Assembly: GCF_024204645.1 (NCBI RefSeq)
Contig: NZ_CP100351.1
Location: forward strand, 1,240,001 to 1,304,000
Direction of reading: 5' to 3'
From: Desulfomicrobium sp. ZS1
GTDB lineage: Bacteria; Desulfobacterota; Desulfovibrionia; Desulfovibrionales; Desulfomicrobiaceae
Length of the DNA stretch: 64,000 nucleotides
Position 1 is the first letter of the stretch; each line of letters opens with the position of its first letter. Of this stretch, positions 39,898 through 55,658 are shown piece by piece. Both the position numbers and the translations under genes were made by a program. A model generated the notes under the pieces. That model worked only from the letters and a program-made list of their open reading frames with translations. It did not search any database and was not told the origin of the DNA.

Positions 39898-41439
39898 CTA
39901 TCTCTTCATCTGGATGGCCGTCTGCACGACCTGGTCGCCCGTGGTGATGACCTTGCTGTTGGCGTCGAATCCTTTTTGGGTGACGATCATGTTCACGAAT
40001 TCGGTGGCCAGGTCGACGTTGGAGTTTTCCAGGCTGCTGGTGATGACGCTCCCGAGCCTGCCTTCTCCGGCCCAACCCACAGAGACGGCCCCGGAGTCCT
40101 TGGTGGCGGAAAAAAGGTTTCCTCCTTCTCGAAAGAGCCCTTGCGGATTGATGAAATCGGCCATGGGGATTTTGTAGAGGCCCTGATTCTGGCCATTGGA
40201 AAAGTAGCCGACGAGCACCCCGGCGGTGTCCACGCTGACCGATTGCAGAAAGCCGCGTTCATATCCGTTCTGGGATTGATAGAGGGTGCTTGATCCGGAG
40301 TTGAAATTGGTGATCGAGAGGATCTGCCTGTCCGCGTTTTGCAAGGACGGCAAATCCGAAGTCGTCGTGCCCAGATCGGCCAGGGTGTTCACCCCCGCAG
40401 GCAGCGCCCAGCCCGAATTCGAGCGCAGACCCATGTCCAGAGCGCTTGAGATGGGCTCCGCTCCAGCCAGGTTCACGTTCAGGACAGGGTAGCCGTTTTC
40501 GGACAAATTGACCGGGACCCAGCTGTTTTTGTCATCGGAGGAGCCTTCGAAAGCGCTCATGTTCAACAGTTCGCCCGATGCCGTGAAGGTCAGGGTTCCG
40601 GTCATGAGCACGCCTTTTTTCGTGTCCAGGCCGGAGGCATCTTGCGTGGGCGGGATGGTGACCAGAAATTCCCACATACGGTTGCCGCTGGGGACGCTCG
40701 CGCCGTCCTGGACAGGATCGAAGAAGGCCCTGACCTCATGCGCTCCGCCGTCGGAATCGTAGATTTTCATGGCTGATTGATACGAGTAGGCATCCGCGTC
40801 CAGAGGCTCCAGCTGCGTCGCATCCCAACTGTCGAAGAGGGCCGTGAAAGGGCTGGTCGTACTGGTGCTTCGTTCTTGCGAGCTTGAATCGAGGTTGATC
40901 ATCATGCGCATTTCCGTAGTCGACTCGGGTTCGGAGACGGGACCTCCACCATCCTGCATGTCCAGACGGATGTCCGTGATGGGAGCGCTTGTGGCGGGCG
41001 GGATGACGGGCGCCGTGTCCAGAATGGATTCCGCCGGCATCCGATAACCCTGCAGGATGTTCCCTTGCGGATCACGCAGATAGCCTTCCGCGTCGAAGCG
41101 GAAGTTGCCGGCTCTGGTATAATGCTGATCGCTGCTTGCGTCGGGCGAGACGATGAAAAATCCCTTGCCGCTGATGGAGATATCGGTGGCCGTATTGGTC
41201 GGTTCCAGCGCTCCCAGCGACATGTCGTACAGGATGGAACTGACGCCGACGCCTTGTCCGACCTGGTTGCTGACGCTCGCCGAGCCCATCTGCTGGCTCA
41301 TCAGGGTGTTGAAGATCATGTGCGAGGATTTGAAGCCAACCGTGCTCACATTGGCTATATTGTCGGAAATGACCGCCATGTTTTTCTGTTGGGCCATGAT
41401 TCCCGTGGTGCCGATATAAAGGGAAGAGGAGATGCTCAT
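39898..41439 (-). CDS. flgE: Flagellar hook protein FlgE
   Basis: A 513-residue axial protein. The N-terminal rod/hook signature SLYIGTTGIMAQQKNMAVISDNIANVSTVGFK-type region is present, then D1/D2 domains with GKGFFIV and YTRAGNFRFDAEGYL, and the C-terminal pairing helix ENSNVDLATEFVNMIVTQKGF. The hook forms the universal joint of the flagellum. It stands alone here, away from flgD or other flg genes. Start ATG 41439 has GGAGG upstream; the longer frame to 41553 is rejected. Its start codon overlaps that of the divergent DUF3047 gene if that gene uses ATG 41438. Confidence 0.92.
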   Translation of the reverse strand: MSISSSLYIGTTGIMAQQKNMAVISDNIANVSTVGFKSSHMIFNTLMSQQMGSASVSNQVGQGVGVSSILYDMSLGALEPTNTATDISISGKGFFIVSPDASSDQHYTRAGNFRFDAEGYLRDPQGNILQGYRMPAESILDTAPVIPPATSAPITDIRLDMQDGGGPVSEPESTTEMRMMINLDSSSQERSTSTTSPFTALFDSWDATQLEPLDADAYSYQSAMKIYDSDGGAHEVRAFFDPVQDGASVPSGNRMWEFLVTIPPTQDASGLDTKKGVLMTGTLTFTASGELLNMSAFEGSSDDKNSWVPVNLSENGYPVLNVNLAGAEPISSALDMGLRSNSGWALPAGVNTLADLGTTTSDLPSLQNADRQILSITNFNSGSSTLYQSQNGYERGFLQSVSVDTAGVLVGYFSNGQNQGLYKIPMADFINPQGLFREGGNLFSATKDSGAVSVGWAGEGRLGSVITSSLENSNVDLATEFVNMIVTQKGFDANSKVITTGDQVVQTAIQMKR

Positions 41440-42148
41440 GAATGCCTCCGGGACTGAAAAAATGCGTGAACGATCCGGCAGAATTTTCCTGCCTGCCCTG
41501 CAAAATGCAGGAATGGGTCCATGGGCGCGGGTGGTGCTTGCCGCAGTGTTCATGGGCTGGGCGTGCGTGGCCCTTGCGGGCGGGCTTCCCGCCCTTTATG
41601 CGCCGGGACATCCGGGCTGGAAGGAAAAGGAGTTTGCGGGTCGCACTGTCTATACGCCGCTGCACGAGGAGAAGCTGCTGCTGGCTGAAAGCAACGGCAC
41701 GGCCTCGGGTTTTTTTTTCGAGCAGTCGATTGATCTTCGTGAAACGCCTTGGCTCAACTGGTCCTGGAAGGTGGAGAACGTGCTTCAGGGCGTAAAGGAG
41801 CGCGAGAAGGGCGGGGATGACTATCCGGCCCGTATTTACGTGGTGGCCAAGGGCGGCTTGGCCTTCTGGAAAACCAAGGCCTTGTCCTATGTCTGGTCCA
41901 GCGCCGAATCCGAAGGCGCCATGTGGCCCAGCGCCTTCACGTCGAGCGCCTACATGGTCGCGGTGCGCAGCGGAACCGCCCGTGTGGGTGAACTGGTCAC
42001 GGAAAAACGCAACATCCGCGAGGACTGGAAACAGGCCTTTGGCGAGGATATCGAGGAAATCGACGCCGTTGCCATCATGACCGACACGGACAATTCGGGC
42101 CAATCCGCTCGTGCCTGGTACGGGCAGCCGTGGTTTTCAAAACAATAG
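41438..42148 (+). CDS. Exported DUF3047-family protein
   Basis: A DUF3047 protein of unknown function, about 235 residues, with an N-terminal export signal (hydrophobic stretch VVLAAVFMGWACVALAGG). The conserved core shows LNWSWKVENVL, GGDDYPARIYVV and AVAIMTDTDNSGQSARAWYG, the last probably a carbohydrate- or metal-binding strand. The start is uncertain: ATG 41438 has GAGGAG with six-base spacing, but that site lies inside flgE's first codons; ATG 41462 or 41513 would free a spacer for promoters and give a more normal signal peptide. A strong terminator follows. Confidence 0.8.
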   Translation: MNASGTEKMRERSGRIFLPALQNAGMGPWARVVLAAVFMGWACVALAGGLPALYAPGHPGWKEKEFAGRTVYTPLHEEKLLLAESNGTASGFFFEQSIDLRETPWLNWSWKVENVLQGVKEREKGGDDYPARIYVVAKGGLAFWKTKALSYVWSSAESEGAMWPSAFTSSAYMVAVRSGTARVGELVTEKRNIREDWKQAFGEDIEEIDAVAIMTDTDNSGQSARAWYGQPWFSKQ

Positions 42149-42225: not shown

Positions 42226-43068
42226 TTACATGGCCATGAGTCTGGCCACGCGGTCTTCGGTCGCGGGGTGAGTTGAAAAAAGGCTGGCCAGCTTTGATGC
42301 CGAGAGCGGGTTGACGATGAACATGTGCGAGGTGGCCTGGGTGGCTTCCTGCATGGGGGCTCTGGTTGCGGACTGCTGCAGCTTCATGAGCGCGCTGGCC
42401 AGGGCTTTCGGTTTGCCGCACATTTTCGCGCCGCCCTCGTCGGCCATGAATTCACGCGAACGTGACACGGCCATCTGGATGAGCATGGCCGCGATGGGCG
42501 CGATGATGGCCATGGCCAGGTTGCCGAGCACGCTTCCGCCGCCTTCGTCGTCGCTGCTGCGGCCCATGCCGAAAATGGCTGCCCATTGCAGCATGCTGCC
42601 GAGCATGGAGATGGCTCCGGCGATGGTCGCGGCGACGGTGGAGATGAGGGTGTCGCGGTTCATGACATGAGTCAGTTCGTGGGCCATGACTCCTTCAAGC
42701 TCGTCGCGCGAGAGGATGCGCATGATGCCCGTGGTGGCGGCGACTGCGGCATGCTCCGGATTGCGGCCGGTGGCGAAGGCGTTGGGACTGTCCGACGGGA
42801 TGACGTAGACCTTGGGCATGGGCATGTTCGCCTTGCGCGCCAGGTTTTCGACGATGCCGTAGAAATCCGGACTCTCGGCGCGAGTCACTTCGCGGGCCTT
42901 GTACATTTTGAGGACGATCTTGTCCGAGTTCCAGTAGGCAAAGAAGTTCATGCCGCCGGCAATGAGAAAGGCGATTATCATCCCGGACTTGCCGCCGATG
43001 GCGCCGCCCATGGCGACAAGCAGCAGCGTCAGCAGGGTCAAGAGAAACGTGGTCTTCAGCATGTTCAT
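42226..43068 (-). CDS. htpX: Membrane zinc metalloprotease HtpX
   Basis: A 280-residue M48B protease of the inner membrane that degrades misfolded membrane proteins. Two N-terminal helices (about 5-45), the catalytic HELTH motif near residue 130, a helical pair around 145-195, and the third zinc ligand in [15 protein letters not shown] are all intact. The start ATG 43068 is preceded by GGAG. The 5' leader contains a yybP-ykoY riboswitch and terminator, so expression should depend on Mn2+. Confidence 0.94.
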
Positions 43069-43095
43069 TTTTTTCTCCGTTTACATCCAGGGTAA

Positions 43096-43135
43096 AGAAA
43101 AAGACCTTTACCCGTGTTCATGTGGATAAAGGTCT
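43096..43135 (-). terminator. Riboswitch-controlled terminator upstream of htpX
   Basis: On the minus strand AGACCTTTATCC, a short loop, GGGTAAAGGTCT, then TTTTCTTT. Its 5' strand is the 3' strand of the riboswitch P1 helix, so the two folds exclude each other. Confidence 0.85.
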
Positions 43136-43244
43136 GGCTGATCTCGACCGGTGTCGGATTCCCGGGTCCGGGCGCTCGCGCCGTACTGACGAACCACGGG
43201 TCGGTTGCCGGGTTGGTCCGGGAACCGCTAGCTACTCCCCTTTG
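43124..43244 (-). ncRNA. yybP-ykoY (manganese) riboswitch aptamer
   Basis: The transcript begins CAAAGGGGAGUAGC and ends AGCCAGACCUUUAUCC, the conserved outer parts of the yybP-ykoY class (compare the Lactococcus yybP element). Inner conserved pieces CGUCAGUACGG and CGAGAUCAGCC are present. P1 pairs AAAGG with CCUUU. Mn2+ binding should hold P1 and prevent the overlapping terminator, switching htpX on. I identified the class by eye from conserved segments, not by a covariance search. Confidence 0.82.
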
Positions 43245-43277
43245 AAGATGTTGAAATAAGATCGGGTCCTGGGGGTG

Positions 43278-45095
43278 TCAAGAGTTCTTCCGGGCGTCCT
43301 TTTTTGACTTCTTGGCGCGTTTTTCACGTTTGAGGCGTTTGGGCGAAGGCTCCAATCCGTCGTCGTCACCACCGGGTTCGATGTCGTCGACATACGCGGA
43401 CCCGTCTCTGTGCCGCCTGTCTTCCTCTTCGCGGATGACGCGTCGAAGCACCTTGCCGACAATGCTTTTGGGCAACTCATCGCGGAATTCCACCTGTTTG
43501 GGCACTTTGTAATTGGCCAGCTTTTCCCGGCAGAAGGCGAACACATCGGTTTTGGAGAGGGTTTCGCCTTCCTTGAGCACAATGTAGGCCTTGATGATCT
43601 CGCCTCGGGTCGGGTGTTTGATGCCCACGCTGACGGCTTCCTTGATGGCCGGATGCTCGTGCAGAACCTCGTCGATTTCGCGCGGGTAGACGTTGTACCC
43701 GCCGGTGATGATCAGGTCCTTTTTGCGGTCCACGATGAAGAAATAGCCTTCTTCGTCCATGTACGCGATGTCGCCGGTATAGAGCCAGCCGTTTCTGAGC
43801 ACGCTGGCCGTCTCGTCGGGGCGGTTCCAGTAGCCCTGCATGACTTGCGGGCCGCGCACCACCATTTCGCCGATCTTGCCCGCAGGCAGGGGCACGGAGC
43901 CGACTTCCATGTCCACGATGGCCGCGTCCGTGTCCGGGAAGGGCAGGCCGATGGAGCCGTTCTTGCTGTTGCCGCGCAAGGGATTCAAATGCGTGATGGG
44001 CGAAGCCTCGGTCAGGCCGAAACCCTCCACGATGTTGGCGCCGCTGCTCAAACTGTTGAATTTCTCCATGACCGGCACGGGCATGGGCGCGGAACCGGAG
44101 ATGCAGTAGCGCACCGAGGACAGGTCGTACTTGTGCAGATTCTTCTGCTGCAACAGGGCGATGAAGATGGACGGCGCGCAGGGGAAGATGGTCGGGTGTT
44201 TCTTGTCGATGGTTTTCAGGACGTCGAGGGGCACGAACTTGGGCATGGGCACCAGGGTCGCGCCGATGAGGGTCCCGAAATTGACGCAGACCGTCAGCCC
44301 GTAGATGTGGAAGAAGGGCAGAAGGCCCAGAATGACCTCGCCCGTTTCTTTGATCGTGTGCAGCACGGCCCTTGCCTGCTGGGCGTTGTACCCCAGGTTG
44401 GCATGGGTCAGCATGACGCCTTTGGAAACGCCCGTGGTGCCGCCGGTGTATTGCAGGGCGGCCAGATCCTTCACGGGATCGACAGGATGCGCAGGTTCTA
44501 TGGCTGTTCGCTTCAGCAGGTTCTTCCAGGGCAGGACGGTCGCGTTGTCGTAGGGGATGGGAGCAAGCGCGTATTCGCGCCTGGATTTCATGGTGTAGAG
44601 GATGTTCAGGGGGAAGCGCAGGCAATCGGCGATGGAGGTCACGAGGATGCGTTTCAAGTGCAGCTTGTCTTTCAGGCCGTCGATGCGTTTCCAGAGCAGA
44701 TTTATGGTGATGAGGGTCTTGGCTTCGGAGTCGTTGAAGTGGTGGACCAGCTCCTTCTCCATGTAGAGGGGGTTGGTCATGACCACCACTGCCCCGATCT
44801 TGAGGCAGGCCCAGTAGCTGATAACCGTTTGCGGGCAGTTGGGCAGCATGATGGCTACGCGTTCGCCAGGCTTGATGCCGATCTTTTTCAGGTTGGCGGC
44901 GGCCAGATCCACGAGGCTCTTGAGTTTCTTGTAGCTCACGCTCCAGTTGTTGAAGACGATGGCCGCCCGGTCGGGATAATTGGTGGCCGTGCGTTCCAGC
45001 ACCTCGTAAAGCGGGATGATTTCGTAGTCCAGATTCGGACCGACTTCCTGGTCGTAATGCTTGAGCCAGACTTTATTTATGCCCTCTGCGATCAT
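43278..45095 (-). CDS. Long-chain acyl-CoA ligase (AMP-binding)
   Basis: A 605-residue adenylate-forming enzyme that activates fatty acids to acyl-CoA. Core motifs: YTGGTTGVSKG (A3), LPFFHIYGLT, GFGLTEASP (A5), WLYTGDIAYMDEEGYFFIVDRKKD (A7-A8) and the catalytic lysine region PKSIVGKVLRR. A basic, charged tail of about 40 residues (GGDDDGLEPSPKRLKREKRAKKSKK) is unusual for FadD and may bind membrane or nucleic acid. It follows the methylase gene in the long minus-strand run, with a gap of about 100 bases. Confidence 0.92.
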   Translation of the reverse strand: MIAEGINKVWLKHYDQEVGPNLDYEIIPLYEVLERTATNYPDRAAIVFNNWSVSYKKLKSLVDLAAANLKKIGIKPGERVAIMLPNCPQTVISYWACLKIGAVVVMTNPLYMEKELVHHFNDSEAKTLITINLLWKRIDGLKDKLHLKRILVTSIADCLRFPLNILYTMKSRREYALAPIPYDNATVLPWKNLLKRTAIEPAHPVDPVKDLAALQYTGGTTGVSKGVMLTHANLGYNAQQARAVLHTIKETGEVILGLLPFFHIYGLTVCVNFGTLIGATLVPMPKFVPLDVLKTIDKKHPTIFPCAPSIFIALLQQKNLHKYDLSSVRYCISGSAPMPVPVMEKFNSLSSGANIVEGFGLTEASPITHLNPLRGNSKNGSIGLPFPDTDAAIVDMEVGSVPLPAGKIGEMVVRGPQVMQGYWNRPDETASVLRNGWLYTGDIAYMDEEGYFFIVDRKKDLIITGGYNVYPREIDEVLHEHPAIKEAVSVGIKHPTRGEIIKAYIVLKEGETLSKTDVFAFCREKLANYKVPKQVEFRDELPKSIVGKVLRRVIREEEDRRHRDGSAYVDDIEPGGDDDGLEPSPKRLKREKRAKKSKKDARKNS

Positions 45096-54104: not shown

Positions 54105-55394
54105 TTATGAAGCACGGTCCGGGCGCAAGGAACTGTGCGCCTTCATGGCGCAGAGCTTGCCGCACATGGTGCAGGTCTTGCCCTCGCTTGAGCGGTTTTC
54201 CTCCCAACGGAGCCGTGGCAGGTCCGGGTCCAGGGCGGCGTGGAACATGCCTTCCCAATTCAGTTCCTTGCGGCAGACGGACATGACCCGGTCCCGCTCG
54301 ATGGCGCCTGGAACGCCCTTGGCGATGTCGCCGGAATGCGCCGCGATGAGCGTGGCGATGACGCCCTGGCGCACGTCGTCCTGATTCGGCAGGCACAGAT
54401 GCTCGGCCGGGGTCACGTAGCACAGGAAGTCCGCGCCCGCCGCGGCCGCTGCGGCGCCTCCAATGGCGGCGGTGATGTGGTCGTAGCCTGGCGCGATGTC
54501 CGTGGTCAGCGGCCCCAGCACGTAAAAGGGCGCGCCGTCGCAGATGCGTTTCTGCAGCATGACGTTGCCGGCGATCTGATTCAAAGGCATGTGTCCGGGG
54601 CCCTCGATCATGACCTGCACCCCTCTGTTTCTGGCCCGCTCGGCCAGTTCCCCGATGACCAGCAATTCCTGGATCTGCGCCGCGTCGGTGGCGTCGCTGA
54701 CCGCTCCGGGTCGCAGACCGTCGCCAAGGCTTAAAGTGACATCGTAGCGGAAGGCGATGTCGAGGAGCTTCTCGTAATGTTCGAGCAGGGGGTTTTCGCG
54801 GTTGTTGCGGTCCATCCAGGCCGCCAGGAGCGCCCCTCCCCGGCTGACTATTCCGGCCACCCTGTCCTTGGCGTGGGTCCGGGCCACGGCCTGGCGGGTT
54901 ACTCCGCAGTGCACGGTGATGTAGTCGATGCCGCCGGCGCACTGCGCTTCGATGGATTCGAGGAGCATGGAGGCGGTCATGGCTTCGATGTCGCGGCCGG
55001 CCTCGACCAGGTCGGCCGCCACCGCATAGAGGGGCACCGCTCCGACCATGACCGGCGAGTGGTCGAGAATCGCCCGCCGCGTGGTCATCAGGTCGCGGCC
55101 CGTGGACAGGTCCATGACGCTGTGCGCCCCGGCCTTGACCGCCATGTCGAGTTTGGCCAATTCAACGTCCAGTGTTCCCTGCACTCCCGATGTTCCGATG
55201 TTGGCGTTGACCTTGGTTTTAAGGCCCTCGCCGATCCCTTCGGCCGCAAAATCCCGGCCCACATTCTTGGGGATGACGATGCGTCCCCTGGCCACGCCGT
55301 GGCGGATGGTTTCAGGGCTCTGGTTTTCCTTTTCCGCCACCACCCGCATTTCCTGGGTGATTGTTCCCTCTAGGGCAAGACTGAGTTGTGTCAT
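54105..55394 (-). CDS. thiC: Phosphomethylpyrimidine synthase ThiC
   Basis: A 429-residue radical-SAM enzyme converting aminoimidazole ribotide to the thiamin pyrimidine HMP-P. It shows the barrel motifs [35 protein letters not shown] and [11 protein letters not shown]. The C-terminal cluster ligands are CTMCGKLC, that is CX2CX3C, one residue shorter than the CX2CX4C of enterobacterial ThiC; the protein is the short form without the N-terminal domain. GAGG precedes ATG 55394; the longer frame overlaps the riboswitch terminator. Controlled by the upstream TPP riboswitch. Confidence 0.95.
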
Positions 55395-55414
55395 GTCGAC
55401 CTCGGTTGAAAATG

Positions 55415-55446
55415 AAAAAGCCGTTTTCCAACAATAGGAAAACGGC
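55415..55446 (-). terminator. TPP-riboswitch terminator before thiC
   Basis: On the minus strand GCCGTTTTCC, TATTGTT, GGAAAACGGC, then five T residues, between the aptamer and thiC. Confidence 0.85.
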
Positions 55447-55470
55447 CGCGCGAGCGTCGTCATGTTTTTC

Positions 55471-55548
55471 GTTTTCCTACGCTGGAATTATCCAGATCAG
55501 GTTCAAAGGGTATAATCTCAGACTCATGCGAGCCACCCCTAACTTGTT
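55471..55548 (-). ncRNA. TPP riboswitch (THI element)
   Basis: The minus strand reads TTAGGGGTG, CTGAGATTATACCC, GAACCTGATCTGGATAAT and CCAGCGTAGG in order, all hallmark pieces of the thiamin pyrophosphate aptamer. TPP binding should favour the downstream terminator and reduce thiC transcription. A possible promoter (TTGACC-N17-TAGTTG) lies just upstream, near 55556-55584. Confidence 0.95.
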
Positions 55549-55658
55549 ATGCGGCAACTAGACCTTTCCGACCGGGAGGTCAACGGTATCGAGTGGATTT
55601 GCCCGTGTTTTCACCATGCGGACCGAGGCGTTTGCTTTCTGGGTCAACCTCGCCCGTA

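Follow-up and report, generated by a model that had tools for sequence, protein, structure and literature searches.

A putative Mn2+ riboswitch of divergent subtype upstream of the membrane protease gene htpX in Desulfomicrobium and other bacteria

We identified, upstream of the gene for the membrane protease HtpX in Desulfomicrobium sp. ZS1, a leader that, judged by its sequence, its predicted fold and its kinship, is a Mn2+-type riboswitch of a divergent subtype, and that very probably acts as a Mn2+-responsive ON switch of the yybP-ykoY class controlling htpX. That the ligand is Mn2+, which way the switch works in Desulfomicrobium sp. ZS1, and why the cell would place htpX under such control are inferences. 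The leader lies on the minus strand (43245-43090), just upstream of htpX, within the stretch of 64,000 nucleotides that was analysed as a whole (the window), and comprises, together with its surroundings, the following features.

43253..43281, minus strand: putative promoter, read by eye, with TTGACA at 43281-43276, a 17-base spacer and a weak -10 box, TATTTC, at 43258-43253.
43244-43231, minus strand: CAAAGGGGAGTAGC, one of the strings quoted in the preliminary description.
43127..43245, minus strand: aptamer of the yybP-ykoY type, with P1.1, L1, P1.2, P2, P3 with L3, and P4.
43240-43233, minus strand: L1, GGGGAGUA, part of the aptamer.
43239..43243, minus strand: 5' strand (AAAGG) of the switch helix P1.1, pairing with CCUUU at 43128-43132.
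43183..43189, minus strand: loop L3, UCAGUAC, taken from the computed fold.
43124..43135, minus strand: AGACCUUUAUCC (the same as AGACCTTTATCC), 5' arm of the terminator, whose CCUUU is the 3' strand of P1.1.
43098..43113, minus strand: 3' arm of the terminator, GGGUAAAGGUCU (the same as GGGTAAAGGTCT), at 43113-43102, and the U tract.
43090..43097, minus strand: segment C, CUUUACCC, which can pair with its complement GGGUAAAG (43113-43106) in the 3' arm of the terminator.
43074..43079, minus strand: ribosome-binding site of htpX, CGGAGA.
42226..43068, minus strand: htpX, encoding a zinc metalloprotease of family M48 of 280 aa.

All the strings quoted in the preliminary description, which named no strand (CAAAGGGGAGTAGC, AGACCTTTATCC and GGGTAAAGGTCT, then a U tract), were found on the minus strand. 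The target gene that it named was confirmed as htpX, its product scoring 411.8 bits with the NCBIfam model NF002826, whose cut-off is 369. The HELTH zinc motif (HExxH) of the protein occupies residues 130-134, and H130, E131, H134 and E206, which we take to be the zinc and catalytic residues, are invariant across 11 aligned HtpX sequences. On its other side the leader is flanked by an acyl-CoA-ligase-like gene (43278-45095, minus strand), for which all 25 family scores listed fell below their cut-offs. No exporter gene was seen after htpX within the window, the next real-looking long frame past htpX (41432-42148) lying on the other strand. We additionally identified an ordinary TPP riboswitch in the window (55457-55550, minus strand, 72.2 bits), just upstream of a gene at 54105-55463 (minus strand) that is presumably thiC-like.

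Transcription would begin at or very near the first aptamer base, from the candidate TTGACA/TATTTC promoter, the weak -10 box of which ends 7 bases ahead of the aptamer. A consensus promoter scan returned no promoter at the leader. A TTGACA was found 40-43 bases upstream of GGGGAGTA in all 19 htpX leaders checked, some of which have better -10 boxes than that of the window, at spacings of 16-18 from TTGACA.

We investigated the relationship of the leader to the Rfam family of the class, RF00080. The search with this model that the preliminary description had proposed as a check was passed narrowly: the match is significant (E 8.9e-6 in a 401-base search, and 2.0e-5 in a search of the genome only), but its 27.3 bits lie under the gathering score of 45, placing the leader outside the family by Rfam's own rule, and it is absent from a scan of the whole window at the gathering threshold. 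At E <= 0.001, RF00080 identified exactly two places in the whole genome, the htpX leader and the leader of a TerC gene, whose product falls in the NCBIfam subfamily R_switched_Alx (372.5 bits vs 246.4). At E <= 0.01 in 49.7 kb, the same model missed all 12 of the other htpX loci searched and recovered one TerC locus out of two; part of the yybP-ykoY class in this phylum scores under the Rfam cut-off. We found no match to the NiCo or other metal switches in the Rfam scans, and the matches to the L31 leader, tmRNA and 5.8S rRNA in the same stretch (8.7-14.6 bits) are at chance level.

Reciprocal and comparative evidence upheld the placement in the yybP-ykoY class made in the preliminary description. 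The covariance model R1, of which the leader is itself a member, matched it with 136.2 bits over all 119 positions. A second model, R2, was built only from 19 htpX leaders, and detected the E. coli mntP switch, a proven Mn2+ riboswitch, just upstream of mntP (49.0 bits, E 5.3e-12 in 42.8 kb). In the alignment of these 19 leaders, which was fitted to the structure, 96.0% of cells are paired, and double changes occur in 20 of the 33 pairs (53 cells), whereas slid controls gave 4-7 pairs and none of 500 shuffles reached any of five measures; RNAalifold recovered much the same helices from the alignment. For the window's genus alone covariation is thin (3/33 pairs, with most helices invariant), because most pairs never vary, and the strong signal needs the distant leaders. 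The L1 sequence GGGGAGUA and the AGACC 3' strand are both present in the window leader, and among 86 aligned leaders 85 contain GGGGAGTA and 84 have an AGAC close to their 3' end. The L3 loop, with its CA (see below), likewise supports the class.

The computed fold of the leader is consistent with a switch acting on transcription. Its minimum free energy structure (-68.1 kcal/mol, z -3.66, with none of 200 dinucleotide shuffles as stable) contains P2, P3 with its asymmetric loop of 7 bases (UCAGUAC), P4 and the hairpin of the terminator. This hairpin, formed by AGACCTTTATCC and GGGTAAAGGTCT and followed by the U tract, has 12 pairs and -16.0 kcal/mol when folded alone, and is formed in all 11 switch leaders of the window's genus. 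In the same 11 leaders CCUUU is common to P1.1 and the terminator, making the two helices mutually exclusive; the terminator logic set out in the preliminary description holds. Four of the five P1.1 pairs never vary in these leaders and one leader has a single mismatch, so that P1.1 shows no covariation and its backing is one of conservation. Given a 12-pair terminator (-16.0 kcal/mol) against a five-pair P1.1, the default state should be OFF, with ligand turning the gene ON. This ON logic is reported for the L. lactis and X. oryzae switches (PMC11087558, PMC6754395), as is the P1.1 switching mechanism of the class (PMC6754395, PMC11087558).

The low RF00080 score (27.3 bits), and the presence in the genus of three genomes with an htpX lacking the switch, might point to a relic, in which the intrinsic terminator persists beside a former aptamer, decayed or constitutive, that no longer switches. 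Such decay is hard to reconcile with the near invariance of L1, L3, P1.1 and the terminator in 11 genomes in which P2 and the loop sequences drift, or with the double changes in distant leaders, and we consider it highly improbable. For the leader as a working switch, we envisage that at low Mn2+ AGACCUUUAUCC would pair with GGGUAAAGGUCU and transcription would stop at the U tract. At high Mn2+, L1 and L3 would dock around the ion and stabilise P1.1 (AAAGG/CCUUU), the terminator would not form, and htpX would be transcribed. HtpX would then dispose of membrane proteins that are damaged or carry the wrong metal, and the exporters belonging to its regulon would rid the cell of the metal itself. 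In B. subtilis, the proteins that co-purify with MeeF, a TerC protein, are reported to include HtpX (PMC10550928).

We examined the predicted metal site in L3 by comparison with L. lactis, for which the reported Mn2+ contacts are G9, U39, C40, A41, U44 and C45 (PMC9190785), with A41, or its X. oryzae counterpart A48, described as the discriminating ligand (PMC6754395). The A at 43187 of the window corresponds to A41. Positions 2-3 of L3 are CA in all 86 leaders aligned with R2, with the register of this CA ambiguous in the group with long L3; 87 leader sources were given, and one GDT1 leader (L003) without a match was left out of the counts. The pattern [UCA]CANN[AC]C fits the L3 of all 36 htpX leaders, and we additionally identified it in 11/11 P-type ATPase, 7/17 TerC and 6/8 other leaders. 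It was found in none of the GDT1 (0/8), CaCA (0/4) or MntP (0/2) leaders, which have a longer L3. This htpX type of L3 has the same 7-residue spacing as the L. lactis site with its bound Mn2+, and L1 GGGGAGUA is kept in 35 of the 36 htpX leaders, L161 having a changed L1. The loop resembles that of L. lactis in length, and a divergence of ligand specific to htpX is not indicated.

A different ligand nevertheless has to be weighed, with the htpX-type aptamer being a yybP variant for Ca2+, Cd2+, Zn2+ or Fe2+ and the zinc enzyme HtpX taking part in that response. Some yybP variants are expected to sense other divalent ions (Sherlock and Breaker, PMC7266159), a streptococcal member of the class reportedly binds Ca2+ tighter than Mn2+ (as told in PMC9495176), and the window L3, UCAGUAC, has an A where L. 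lactis has U44. We consider this unlikely, as all 36 htpX leaders retain the residues equivalent to L. lactis C40, A41 and C45, L1 is kept in all of them except L161, the same type of L3 serves P-type ATPase and some TerC genes, and htpX adjoins GDT1 or TerC in several loci. Mn2+ remains the ligand that we favour.

The survey of related htpX leaders that the preliminary description had called for showed the link to htpX to be recurrent, sometimes with exporter genes close behind. Among 16 genomes of the window's genus, 11 have the switch upstream of htpX and three have htpX without it; in the other two the htpX match starts at a contig end, leaving 11 of 14 evaluable genomes. R1 identified matches in 15 of 348 genomes of the class, namely the 11 of the genus and four others; in these four the next gene, named by eye, encodes TerC in three cases and a sodium/calcium exchanger in one. 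We further identified the switch at 8 of 80 named HtpX loci, the best 80 of at least 588, a set that may omit records close to the genome of the window. These eight belong to Desulfuromonadaceae (2), Geobacteraceae (3, one of them Geomonas azotofigens), Nitrospirota (2) and one other bacterium, which overturns a confinement of the link to one genus; the other 72 loci have no switch, one of them lacking upstream sequence. Another 19 HtpX loci, drawn from the genus, family and order, yielded no switch; two borderline hits (11-12 bits, E 2.5 and 3.5) were disregarded. In five genomes, there are two htpX copies, each with its own Mn-type switch (L186/L191, L184/L192, L189/L194, L156/L197 and L161/L200). 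A recurrent protease target of a Mn2+-type riboswitch was not found in print: the consulted portions of the literature held no report of htpX as a target of a yybP-ykoY or Mn riboswitch, and the word htpX is absent from the main text of Sun et al. 2013, which covers ten Desulfovibrionales genomes.

We considered the descent of the switch-bearing genes with the help of a rapidly built tree, without bootstraps, of 127 HtpX proteins, in which L132 was counted as lacking a switch though it has no upstream sequence. The 36 switch-bearing HtpX require 7 state changes, at least 5 of them forced by well-supported branches, while shuffled states average 31.4 changes and none of 500 shuffles was as low as 7. 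A clade of 32 HtpX (SH-aLRT 99) contains 27 with the switch, and its five members without it come from the window's own family, two of these being identical and apparently one genome fetched twice. The HtpX of three other families of the order, and of one named Nitratidesulfovibrio, resolve into a separate clade of 16, all without a switch. The nine remaining switch-bearing HtpX are placed elsewhere, among Nitrospirota and members of the phylum. The tree topology suggests that the window's family may have acquired htpX together with its switch from a Desulfuromonadales-like source, with later loss in some members.

We additionally identified the genes behind related switches, using R2 in 395 genomes of the phylum, 35 of which gave 41 matches in all. 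Comparison with reference proteins from the loci showed that the gene recognised first is HtpX in 16 cases (14 genomes), a P-type ATPase in 8 (and in a further 3 with a small gene in between), TerC in 7, GDT1 in 2, a Zn-ribbon protein in 2 and an RHH-DedA unit in 1, with 2 matches lacking an assignment; the share of HtpX is biased upwards because R2 was built from htpX leaders. Under the same strict filters, RF00080 found matches in 10 of the 395 genomes, compared to 35 for R2, and as only 3 genomes are in common the two models complement each other and neither list is complete. Exporter genes of the GDT1, TerC or P-type ATPase kind come after htpX in five loci. GDT1 starts 6 bases past htpX in one locus and TerC 51 bases past it in another; in two loci htpX and TerC are separated by an RHH gene, and a Zn-ribbon gene and a P-type ATPase lie behind htpX in one. 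Pfam searches with ten example proteins returned TerC, GDT1, E1-E2_ATPase, Zn_ribbon_TFIIB, RHH_1, Mntp, Na_Ca_ex and Peptidase_M48 among the names.

Several further features of these units were observed. Small Zn_ribbon_TFIIB-like proteins are encoded behind Mn-type switches in L159, L168, L070, L178 and L179, in three cases ahead of P-type ATPases. Small RHH (CopG-like) proteins occur in switch-controlled units in L195, L196, L155, L158 and L162, twice between htpX and TerC, and are possibly an extra regulator. In L193, a Mn-type switch lies upstream of a frame that by eye is carbonic-anhydrase-like, and the same genome (G729) has an htpX switch. Between the TerC riboswitch and TerC, L040 (1313-1516; also L041) has a 67-codon frame with its own Shine-Dalgarno sequence, the stop of which overlaps the TerC start (ATGA). 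Counted by genome, the frames at this position have 67, 67 and 61 codons in three and are shorter, by eye, in a fourth, those of L042 and L043 being the shorter ones; three other genomes have no such frame, TerC following the switch directly. The frame is possibly a leader peptide. Finally, a 26.1-bit switch match in the genus genome G004 (L044, 3519-3611, minus strand) lies about 1.1 kb upstream of TerC and does not adjoin it.

We examined segment C, which follows the U tract, as a possible further element. Segment C and the terminator 3' arm can form a third, mutually exclusive hairpin, for which 9 of 200 shuffles of the window leader were as stable. The duplex has 11 uninterrupted pairs in three relatives within the genus (L015-L017). 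Of the five named leaders from Desulfuromonadaceae and Geobacteraceae, three have 11-15 such pairs (L074-L076); in the other two, L102 and L146, the duplex is no better than shuffles (48 and 107 of 200 as stable). Taking at most 10 of 200 shuffles as stable for a pass, the duplex was identified in 19/36 htpX and 9/17 TerC leaders and in 0/17 other leaders (19 given, of which two could not be parsed), many leaders in these and the following exposure counts being close relatives, so that the counts are not independent. Within the genus, 6 of the 11 htpX leaders pass and 5 do not, and a column-based test of the C/arm pairing is weak (a double change in 1/8 pairs, with 41/500 shuffles reaching the covariation score). 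The third hairpin was rejected as a general feature.

Segment C is transcribed after the termination decision, and should therefore not influence it. The Shine-Dalgarno sequence of the window htpX has a computed mean unpaired probability of 0.91 with the arm free, against 0.50 with the arm hidden, and the corresponding shift in exposure ranges from 0 to 0.41 in the 11 htpX leaders of the genus. In the TerC leaders of the genus, segment C is also complementary to the Shine-Dalgarno sequence, which is computed to be unpaired at 0.01-0.04 with the arm hidden against 0.29-0.60 with the arm free in all six evaluated. Across lineages, exposure rises by at least 0.1 in 14 and falls by as much in 5 of 34 htpX leaders (34 of the 36 given). 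It rises in 8 and falls in 2 of 12 TerC leaders (13 of 17 given, one without a start found), including a rise in all six of the window's genus, and rises in 1 and falls in 4 of 11 other leaders (11 of 19 given).

It is conceivable, if somewhat doubtful, that the terminator 3' arm doubles as a decoy ribosome-binding site, adding a translational layer to the switch. Segment C would pair either with the terminator 3' arm or with the real Shine-Dalgarno sequence. With Mn2+ present, the free arm would take up segment C, and the gene would be both transcribed and translated. Without Mn2+, any leaked transcripts would have the arm locked in the terminator, leaving segment C to cover the ribosome-binding site. 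We grade this reading as tentative because the computed effect is strong in the TerC leaders of the genus, moderate at its htpX leaders, and mixed over the whole htpX set.

The recurrence of htpX as a target, together with the exporter genes behind it in five loci, suggests that a protease duty is part of the response to manganese excess in some related bacteria; cells with excess Mn would raise a membrane protease alongside their pumps, a prediction that is open to experiment. The htpX leader shares with the RF00080 switches of L. lactis yoaB, X. oryzae yebN and E. coli mntP the L1 sequence GGGGAGUA, an L3 with UCA, the same four helices, the AGACC 3' strand and the opposition of P1.1 to an intrinsic terminator, and the ON logic reported for the L. 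lactis and X. oryzae switches is the same as that proposed here. It differs from them in its score under the Rfam cut-off, in an extra segment past the U tract, and in its target, which is a protease and not a transporter, the partners of the yybP-ykoY class being described as putative cation transporters (PMC7266159). Its 7-base L3, UCANNAC, resembles in spacing the UCANNUC of L. lactis, unlike the longer UCAACANNC type of mntP. The NiCo (czcD) riboswitch is likewise a metal-sensing four-way-junction RNA with terminator control, but is described as having no docking interface of the kind seen in Mn2+ switches (PMC6754395). A link between Mn excess and membrane-protein quality control is also reported for B. 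subtilis YqgP-FtsH, in which YqgP cleaves MgtE (PMC7231995); YqgP, however, is a rhomboid protease of another family than HtpX, and the consulted part of that account mentions no riboswitch on yqgP. The htpX switches connect genetically, in lineages distant from Bacillus, with two findings in B. subtilis: the co-purification of HtpX with MeeF, and the part played in Mn stress by a rhomboid protease together with FtsH.
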